Below the pieces are notes generated by a model. That model worked only from the letters and a program-made list of their open reading frames with translations, was not told the DNA's origin and did not search any database. A program made the translations under genes and the position numbers. 53,474 nucleotides of DNA from Bifidobacterium breve (GTDB lineage Bacteria; Actinomycetota; Thermoleophilia; Solirubrobacterales; Solirubrobacteraceae): assembly GCA_945878865.1 (NCBI GenBank), contig CAMCUD010000028.1, positions 1-53,474 on the forward strand, read 5' to 3'. Positions 31,179 to 45,492 of the stretch are shown here, piece by piece (the first letter of the stretch is position 1; every line of letters begins with the position of its first letter).

Positions 31179-31849
31179 GCGTAGTTGCGCACCTCCACGC
31201 AGGTGTAGCCCTCGGAGGTCAGGAACGGCCCATGGTCGACACCCGGCCCCTTGGCGGTGAACGTCCCCGCGGGGTGGAACTCGTCGCCCATCTTGTAGGA
31301 CCCCTCGAGGATCATCACTTCCTCGCTGTGGTCGTGGTTGAACACGCCCGTGGCGATGCCCGGCTCGACCCACAGCAGCCGTGTCGCCGAGCCGGACGGC
31401 CCGATCGTCAGCAGCTTCTCCCACACGCCCTCAGGGGAGCCCTCGGGCCGCGTCCACGGCATCTGCTCGATGTCGATCGGGTAGAGCCGGACGGCGGGCT
31501 TGTCCATGGACGGCCCGTGGTAGTCACGGAACTCCAGGCACGTGTAGCCCTCGACGGTGGAGAACGGCCCGTGCGGCACGCCCGGCCCCTTGCAGGTGAA
31601 CGTCCCGGCCGGGTGGAACTCCTCGCCCATCTTGTAGGAGCCCTCAAGGATGAGGACCTCCTCCCAGTGGTCGTGCGTGAAGACGCCGGTGCCCACGCCT
31701 GGTTCGACGCGCAGCAGCCGCGTCACCGACCCGGTCTCGGGGTCGAGGGCGAGGACCTTCTCCCACACGCCGTCGGGTGCGCCGTCGGGCCGCACCCATT
31801 CCATGAGCTCGACGTCGATGGGATACAGGCGGGTCAGGGGCTTGGGCAC
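31175..31849 (-). CDS. Tandem-duplicated cupin protein
   Basis: 224 residues made of two nearly identical cupin units of about 110 residues. Each contains RLYPID(V/I)E, GVWEK, the metal motif HDH(W/S)EEV, ILEGSYKMG(E/D)EFHPAGTF and GPGV(P/D)HGPF. The repeated unit is so alike that the duplication or its homogenisation must be recent. The GTG at 31849 has AGGAG five bases upstream, overlapping the stop of the preceding amidohydrolase. Cupins of this ChrR-like type can be dioxygenases, isomerases or metal-binding sensors; the reaction is unknown. The ATGA joint to the phosphoribosyltransferase gene shows it belongs to the operon. Confidence 0.82.
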   Translation of the reverse strand: MPKPLTRLYPIDVELMEWVRPDGAPDGVWEKVLALDPETGSVTRLLRVEPGVGTGVFTHDHWEEVLILEGSYKMGEEFHPAGTFTCKGPGVPHGPFSTVEGYTCLEFRDYHGPSMDKPAVRLYPIDIEQMPWTRPEGSPEGVWEKLLTIGPSGSATRLLWVEPGIATGVFNHDHSEEVMILEGSYKMGDEFHPAGTFTAKGPGVDHGPFLTSEGYTCVEVRNYA

Positions 31850-31857
31850 GGAGGCTC

Positions 31858-44405: not shown

Positions 44406-44467
44406 CCGCCACCCCCGGGTGAACGTTGGTTCACCGGGGTTCCAGCCCCGCAGGACGTACGCTCGGC
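44406..44467 (-). repeat. REP-like palindromic repeat, copy 1 (minus orientation)
   Basis: Read on the minus strand it contains GAGCGTACGTCCTGCGGGG, a 6-base loop, CCCCG and then CCAACGTTCACCC-GGGGGTG. This matches copy 3 downstream of the DUF559 gene almost base for base in the arms (CGTACGTC-TGCGGGG; ACGTTC; GGGTG). The core hairpin is CGGGG/CCCCG at 44435-44439 and 44446-44450. It fills the gap between the TetR and DUF559 genes. Confidence 0.6.
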
Positions 44468-44511
44468 CCGGGTTGGGGGCGAGTTCGGCGGCGCCGCGCC
44501 CTACCGGGGGC

Positions 44512-45396
44512 ATGACCCATCCGCTCGTCGAGCGCCGCCTCTCCACCCAGGAAGGCCTCGTGTCGTCCTGGCAGCTCCGGGGCGACGGCGCCTCCCCCGA
44601 TGCCATCCGCCACGCGATCAAGGGCCTGCGCGAGGTCCATGACGGCGTGCACGCCAGCGGCCACGCCGCCCTCAGCGAGCTCCAGCGGTGGCGGGCAGCC
44701 ACGCTCACCGCGCCGAACACCGCGCTCGCGTTCGTCTCTGCTGGCGCGTTCCACGGGTTCTTCGAACACCGAGGGCCCGCGGTGACCGTGGTCCGCCCCG
44801 GCAGTGGCGGACCGCAGCAGTTCGGGCGGCTGCTCGTCTGCCGGTCGAACCGCCTCGCCGGCGACGTCGCGTCGTACGACGGGATGCCGGTGACCACCCC
44901 CGCACGGACCGCGCTCGATCTCATCGGGACCGTCGCCCGCACGCGCGGAGACCGCATCGTCCGCGAAGCACTGCGGATCGGCGCGGTCACCGACGAGGAC
45001 CTGGTGCGCGCGGTCATCCGCCACAAGGGCCGGCGCGGCGTCGCTGCGTTGCGCGCGTTCGCCGCCGAGTACTCCGGTCTGCCCGCCACCCGGTGTCGCA
45101 GCGACGCCGAACTGCTCGGCCTCGCGATCCTTCGCCATGCCGGGCTGGAGCTGCCCGGGGTCAACGTGAAGATCGCCGGCCACGCCGCCGACTACTCGTG
45201 GCCCGACCGCCGCGTGATCATCGAGCTCGACGGCCCCGACTTCCACCGGTACCCGACGCACGACCTGCGCATCCAACGGAAGTGGGAGCGCGCTGGCTGG
45301 ACGGTGTACCGGCTGTCGACGGACGACGTGTACCACCGGCCCGACCTCCTCATCGCCCTCGCCGTGCGAGCGAACGTACGTCGTGCGGGGCCATAG
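44512..45396 (+). CDS. DUF559 nuclease-like protein with AbiEi-like N-terminal half
   Basis: 294 residues. The N-terminal half (LSTQEGLVSSWQLRGDGAS, GVHASGHAALSELQRWRAA, TTPARTALDLIGTV) resembles the AbiEi/type IV antitoxin-like proteins common in actinobacteria. The C-terminal half carries a VSR/DUF559-type PD-(D/E)xK signature: DYSWPDRRVIIELDG, DLRIQRKWERAGWTVYRLS. The last codons lie inside repeat copy 2, whose loop provides the stop codon. No separate AbiEii-type partner toxin gene is next to it. The start is the ATG at 44512; no strong ribosome site is seen. Function unknown: possibly a nuclease connected with its flanking repeats, or an orphan regulator. Confidence 0.75.
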   Translation: MTHPLVERRLSTQEGLVSSWQLRGDGASPDAIRHAIKGLREVHDGVHASGHAALSELQRWRAATLTAPNTALAFVSAGAFHGFFEHRGPAVTVVRPGSGGPQQFGRLLVCRSNRLAGDVASYDGMPVTTPARTALDLIGTVARTRGDRIVREALRIGAVTDEDLVRAVIRHKGRRGVAALRAFAAEYSGLPATRCRSDAELLGLAILRHAGLELPGVNVKIAGHAADYSWPDRRVIIELDGPDFHRYPTHDLRIQRKWERAGWTVYRLSTDDVYHRPDLLIALAVRANVRRAGP

Positions 45397-45419
45397 GCCC
45401 GCAATCCCGACGCTCGGCC
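45366..45419 (+). repeat. REP-like palindromic repeat, copy 2 (plus orientation)
   Basis: GCGAGCGAACG then CGTACGTCGTGCGGGG, loop CCATAG, then CCCGCA and a degenerate right arm (CCCGACGCTCGGCC). It overlaps the 3' end of the DUF559 gene, whose TAG stop is in the loop. It shares 16 consecutive bases with copy 3. Confidence 0.6.
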
Positions 45420-45430
45420 GCGGCGGGCTG

Positions 45431-45492
45431 GCGAGCGTACGTCGTGCGGGGCTCTGACCCCGCACGACCGACGTTCGCGCCCGAGGGTGCGG
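45431..45492 (+). repeat. REP-like palindromic repeat, copy 3 (plus orientation)
   Basis: The most complete copy. TCGTGCGGGG (45442-45451) and CCCCGCACGA (45458-45467) form a perfect 10-bp stem with loop CTCTGA. Outside it, GCGAGCGTACG and CGACGTTCGC extend the dyad imperfectly. The sequence CCCGAGGGTGCGG follows, as in copy 1. It can also serve as a transcription terminator for the DUF559 gene. Confidence 0.6.

Follow-up and report, generated by a model that had tools for sequence, protein, structure and literature searches.

What relation does a little-studied DUF559 nuclease-like gene have to the palindromes that stand on both sides of it? The locus that raises this question lies in a window of 53,474 nucleotides, the whole stretch of DNA that was analysed, which corresponds to contig 28 in a genome of 4.96 Mb (G000) placed in the same genus as Svornostia abyssi J379 (G001). 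Sequence comparison shows well that DUF559 genes are associated with palindromes of their own. The explanation that we consider somewhat likelier to be right than wrong is that gene and palindromes are one selfish two-part system, in which a nuclease with a two-fold double-stranded target would spread by way of break repair; the mechanism of spread itself has about an even chance of being the one proposed here.

The gene and its flanking palindromes

The locus consists of the following features.

44421..44464, no strand assigned: upstream 44-bp palindrome, with arm variant X on the left and Y on the right
44465..44511, plus strand: leader from the palindrome to the ATG, GGGGGCGAG...CCTA..GGGGGC, which recurs 5' of the ATG in related genes (seen by eye, without a statistic)
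44512..45396, plus strand: gene of 294 aa, with an AbiEi-like region at about aa 12-176 and a DUF559 nuclease domain at about aa 195-292
45372..45415, no strand assigned: first downstream palindrome, which holds the last codons and stop of the gene
45416..45432, no strand assigned: doublet linker of 17 bp
45433..45476, no strand assigned: second downstream palindrome, which forms a 105-bp doublet with the copy at 45372..45415

Each palindrome unit is 44 bp long and consists of a 19-nt arm, a 6-nt centre, and another 19-nt arm, the upstream unit (44421-44464) reading GAACGTTGGTTCACCGGGG-TTCCAG-CCCCGCAGGACGTACGCTC. The palindromes that the original prediction placed around one DUF559 gene are real, as the units at 44421, 45372, and 45433 bracket an intact 294-aa gene, and it was also right that the last codons and stop lie inside one copy: the stop codon TAG (45394-45396) falls within the centre CCATAG of the 45372-45415 copy. 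Its reading of the copies as terminal inverted repeats, based on their minus and plus orientation, is not established, because each unit is nearly symmetric and orientation therefore means little; strict transposon ends in the outer copies and a unit mobile today are likewise unsupported, and the GGGTG that it took as the repeat end is flank, outside the 44-bp unit. The two downstream copies are one doublet of the genome-wide kind described below, 61 bp apart from start to start.

Within the window, the inverted pair I2/I14 is 45 nt long (80%), and the short core CGTACGTCGTGCGGGG occurs 7 times at up to 3 mismatches versus 4.0 expected, so that the short core alone has no significance there and the case rests on the genome and its relatives. 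No Rfam match comes near a gathering score, and no GTAG or CGTC tag lies beside a short (20-40 bp) hairpin, the units being 44 bp long with GARC/GYTC ends.

The only models that match the window protein are DUF559 (E 3e-5, above the model cut-off), MTES_1575, and AbiEi, the last through PADLOC models that match aa 12-176 with a best E of 1.5e-10. The neighbouring genes encode a TetR regulator and a periplasmic binding protein (Peripla_BP_6), and no AbiEii nucleotidyltransferase is found beside the gene. In structural alignment, the nuclease domain (aa 195-292) is closest to 3hrl (Z 11.5) and to the catalytic domain of I-Bth0305I (Z 10.6; rmsd 2.3 with 87 aligned positions and a weak Foldseek E-value of 0.03), with the next rows at 8 or below, and the sequence profile of the protein also finds 3hrl (E 7e-6). 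The AF2 model was made from four sequences only and is poor outside the nuclease domain, and the fold list, for which the query covered residues 193-294 only, contains no AbiEi structures. An alignment of 13 proteins shows no variation at E200, D227, E238, D240, and H245 and very little at D251. The modelled nuclease domain has the catalytic-domain fold of the EDxHD homing endonuclease family, near that of I-Bth0305I.

Gene-specific palindromes and their dispersed copies

DUF559/AbiEi-like proteins occur in 81 of 246 sampled Actinomycetota genomes, often in several copies, and the G000 genome has seven DUF559 matches (Pfam, E<=1). Among close relatives of the window gene, those in G000, G001, G002, and G022 are bracketed by a palindrome that is the same on the two sides of one gene and differs between genes; for those in G024 and G016, and for part of those in G037, one side or neither has it. 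Some genes of the close subfamily look broken, as L069, L070, and L082 are split over two frames and L083 gives a partial match.

Bracketing was measured as local similarity between the upstream and downstream flanks of one gene, with flanks paired across genes as controls. Own-flank similarity reaches at least 20 in 35 of 109 genes of the class versus 4 of 2180 cross-pairings, and at least 18 in 41 of 109 versus 12 of 2180, with orthologues included in both set and controls. At the latter threshold, 12 of 24 genes from other Actinomycetota classes match versus 0 of 552 cross-pairings, and so do 3 of 247 ordinary genes taken from S. abyssi and from the window; the match is missing in 68 of the 109 class genes and 12 of the 24 others. 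Furthermore, a hairpin of at least 12 is found in either flank of 58 of the 109 genes, in 3 of 218 shuffled flanks, and in 1 of 109 gene interiors. Among 53 genes with matched flanks, 29 have the stop codon within the downstream repeat, 19 ahead of it, and 5 beyond it, these last five rows being unreliable, since for some (L072, L080) the search match overran the true stop. The flank matches bear out the pairing of palindrome and DUF559 genes that had been predicted. In many distant relatives, the upstream palindrome is near the gene start, and in many (for example, L120, L146, L162, and L179) an ATG that may be the start codon sits at its centre (CATATG or TCATGG).

Copies of the palindrome are also dispersed through the genome. 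The 16-nt core at up to 2 mismatches has 62 matches in G000 versus 11 for the reversed control. The G000 loci that were read comprise 34 window-type units, mostly paired exactly 61 bp apart, and one unit of another type; C77-type copies are mostly single. Exact 105-bp doublets of the pattern GARC-N36-GYTC-N17-GARC-N36-GYTC number 19 in G000, 2 in S. abyssi, and 1 in G022, with none in the remaining 38 of the 41 genomes and 0 for the reversed control in all 41. The dispersed doublets differ in type just as the orthologous genes do: the doublet sequence is GGTCGTCGG in S. abyssi versus CGTACGTC in the window genome, and both S. abyssi doublets are GGTCGTCGGTGGCCG, which also flanks L068, the S. 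abyssi orthologue of the window gene, itself adjoining the same binding-protein gene.

A covariance model (R1) built from 22 palindromes, most of them flanking genes, matches on both strands at least 141 times in G000, at least 79 in G001, at least 110 in G002, at least 91 in G022, and at least 8 in G024; among the matches listed, there is none in G010, G023, or G120. Its pairing counts are circular, since being a palindrome was the criterion by which units were chosen. The 40 model-found S. abyssi sites among the matches listed all fall into five gene types by arm similarity, a count that leans to those types because R1 was built mostly from gene-flanking palindromes. Thirty-two of these have the types of the three close DUF559 genes of S. 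abyssi (13, 9, and 10 sites, one of the 10 matching at only 15/19), and the other eight (5 and 3, one of the 3 tying with another type) have types whose gene is in the sister genome G002. Scanned without regard to sequence, 400 kb of S. abyssi gave 21 hairpins, only 3 of which are of these types. In three cases from other genera, model-free searches with arm patterns taken from gene flanks found 15 sites in G010 (nothing better than 2 mismatches in four other genomes), 17 in G226 (none in four other genomes), and 10 in G373 (3-mismatch hits only in other genomes), the gene's own flanks making up 2 sites of each count. The outcome that had been set against the prediction, a palindrome found all over the genome without bias to DUF559 genes, thus applies in its first part only: copies are genome-wide, and the bias is strong and gene-specific.

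Assembly contigs end at or near DUF559 units (C44 and C77 in G000, also L082 and L081), so that the repeats may interrupt assembly and the true copy numbers may be higher. A second S. abyssi family (GTGTGACCCGAA, GAGTTGACCCGG, and GTGTGAGCATCC) was predicted to flank four more distant DUF559 genes, and this prediction failed, as none of the four further genes tested adjoins the GTGTGACCCGAA family. Long palindromes of 49-57 bp (GTGTGACCCGAA.., GTGTGAGCATCC.., GAGTTGACCCGG..) are present at L264:18795, L266:9466, L272:16843, and L274:8782 of S. abyssi, with no cognate DUF559 gene among those tested.

Positions, changes between species, and half-sites

By rough ORF calls, 44 of 53 dispersed sites are within -25 to +37 nt of a gene 3' end, and the 53 comprise 25 sites between convergent genes, 17 in tandem, 2 between divergent genes, and 9 called intragenic. 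Presence varies between species. Three loci with both flanks aligned (L210/L269, L010/L246, and L001/L264) are empty in S. abyssi and filled in G000; the insertion ends are inexact there, the differences exceeding the palindrome. No target-site duplication was seen at the compared empty sites, where the flanks have diverged. Type also varies: L014/L245 has the window doublet in one species versus a type A single in the other, and L256/L249 has C77 versus C, in both cases the types of orthologous genes. A windowed comparison of three orthologous genes, made to learn if a single part of the gene follows type, is uninformative because the whole gene differs. The ortholog pairs L004/L252, L015/L234, and L020/L259 were left out because their sites did not correspond, and L254/L263, L005/L239, L016/L251, L023/L281, and L084/L225, which align on one side only, were excluded from the counts.

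At L025/L283, where G000 has a doublet, G002 has an entire DUF559 unit from another subfamily, and the one-sided pairs L023/L281 and L084/L225 likewise combine a palindrome on the side of one species with a DUF559 gene from a different subfamily in the other. Some gene ends thus look as if they were hot spots for palindromes and DUF559 genes. In one case, the L071 unit of G002, a half-site of the unit's own type lies 30 bp outside it to the left and to the right, which looks like an insertion into the middle of an older palindrome of that type.

If the palindrome were kept as a hairpin, matching within a unit should be better than matching across units, and it is not. In none of six unit sets (the sixth being a subset of the fifth) does the similarity of paired arms exceed that of re-dealt ones: the match within units (of 19) is 15.0, 15.6, 15.7, 18.0, 13.2, and 14.1, and the re-dealt means in the same order are 15.2, 15.7, 16.5, 18.0, 14.4, and 15.1. 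This lack of coupling argues against a hairpin element like that of REPs, which had been claimed for the palindrome. Units tend to combine two different arms: among the 34, 15 are X-Y, and X-X units number 0 versus 1.7 expected, X and Y pairing badly. Of 82 units from seven unit sets, 56 have a centre that agrees with YCAKRG or its complement versus a background of 0.2%, a pattern chosen on these same data. Arms that vary with the gene around a constant centre are what an enzyme would show in which different parts recognise and cut the DNA. Because the arms are uncoupled and a polar centre is common to the types, a two-fold double-stranded target is preferred over a hairpin, a terminator, or a REP/RAYT transposon.

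Possible modes of spread and known systems

In the proposed two-part system, a nuclease gene would be flanked by copies of its own recognition site, and gene-less copies of this site would be spread through the genome, mostly just 3' of genes. The protein would bind double-stranded DNA as a homodimer, one subunit per 19-nt arm by way of the AbiEi-like region, and its DUF559 (Vsr/EDxHD-like) domain would cut at the conserved polar centre. If the break were then repaired from another copy, palindromes or the whole gene unit would be copied, including entry at new sites, and all copies of one type would stay alike. According to a review, I-Bth0305I dimerises on a target that is unusually long, at nearly 60 bp (PMC3943268), which would suit a 44-bp two-fold site.

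A closely parallel arrangement is that of REP/REPIN elements with RAYT (TnpA-REP), for which two papers describe a gene between its own short palindromes, intergenic cognate copies, doublets, orphan types, and type switches at orthologous genes (PMC3686654, PMC3116915). All of these recur here, the cognate copies being dispersed in the same genome and mostly extragenic, and the likeness that had been claimed, with a DUF559 protein in place of the Y1 transposase, holds as far as the own flanking repeats, the cognate copies, and the lack of a PF01797 match go. A mechanism of the same kind, in which the protein would read a single-stranded hairpin and move doublets, the nuclease taking the Y1 role, is nevertheless unlikely. 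The fixed 61-bp spacing of doublets, the own-repeat flanking, the orphan types, and the type switches known from RAYTs would follow from it, but not the uncoupled arms, the many X-Y and missing X-X units despite bad pairing of X with Y, or the mostly single C77-type copies. In addition, the G000 genome has no Y1 (HuH) gene, with no PF01797 match at E<=1. REP/RAYT systems combine a Y1/HuH enzyme with short GTAG-tagged hairpins, whereas the present units are 44-bp two-arm sites with GARC..GYTC ends and without Y1, and their arms act as independent half-sites, unlike REPs.

AbiEi antitoxins bind to inverted repeats in the promoter that drives their own expression. It is therefore conceivable, though improbable, that the AbiEi-like protein represses its own gene, with the dispersed palindromes serving as operators or forming a regulon, as the upstream palindrome near the gene start of many distant relatives would suggest; however, dispersed sites lie at gene 3' ends and only rarely between divergent genes, copies also stand 3' of the gene, and sites present in one congener are absent in the next. 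The position 3' of genes, with 25 of 53 sites convergent, would suit a family of bidirectional host terminators used by DUF559 genes as by others, which we regard as very improbable in view of gene-specific types on both sides of each gene, the position of the stop codon within the downstream repeat for 29 of the 53 genes with matched flanks, the missing arm coupling, and the absence of a T-run after the hairpin at the window palindromes, as read by eye. Another enzyme might move the palindromes, with DUF559 genes as passengers at the same hot spots 3' of genes. The L025/L283 junction, which holds a doublet or a DUF559 unit of another subfamily depending on the species, is what such passengers would produce, but this account, also improbable, leaves unexplained why palindrome type tracks the DUF559 genes of the genome.

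For the two-part nuclease system, it is an evenly balanced question whether it represents a phylum-wide selfish or mobile class in Actinomycetota, in which AbiEi-DUF559 nucleases bracketed by their own long two-fold site would spread gene-less copies, as a counterpart of REP/RAYT that acts on double-stranded DNA with an unrelated enzyme. Orthologous nucleases of such a class would switch target, taking the whole repeat population along. The window protein shares its predicted nuclease fold with the EDxHD homing endonuclease I-Bth0305I, but its gene is outside any intron or intein, has its own target on both sides and many gene-less copies, and includes an AbiEi-like region. That region is shared with AbiE type IV toxin-antitoxin systems, which differ in that the AbiEii partner is not adjacent here. 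CGTC-tagged REPs, said to lack a dedicated transposase, are likewise dispersed palindromes without an associated Y1 gene but have stems of 8-9 bp and occur mostly in alpha-proteobacteria (PMC3733652). In the literature searched, which covers few subscription journals and no bioRxiv preprints, neither a description of such a system nor a link of DUF559/AbiEi-like proteins to palindromes was found.

If the proposed explanation is true, DUF559/AbiEi-like proteins gain a role and a large set of palindromic repeats gains a maker, and the spread of short palindromes in bacterial genomes would have a second explanation unrelated to the first. Since each gene carries its own predicted target, specificity is directly testable, and this set of nucleases may be a source of long-site nucleases. 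Elsewhere in the window, a tandem repeat of 215 nt (80%) with 339-nt spacing occupies positions 31181-31852, probably within a gene.
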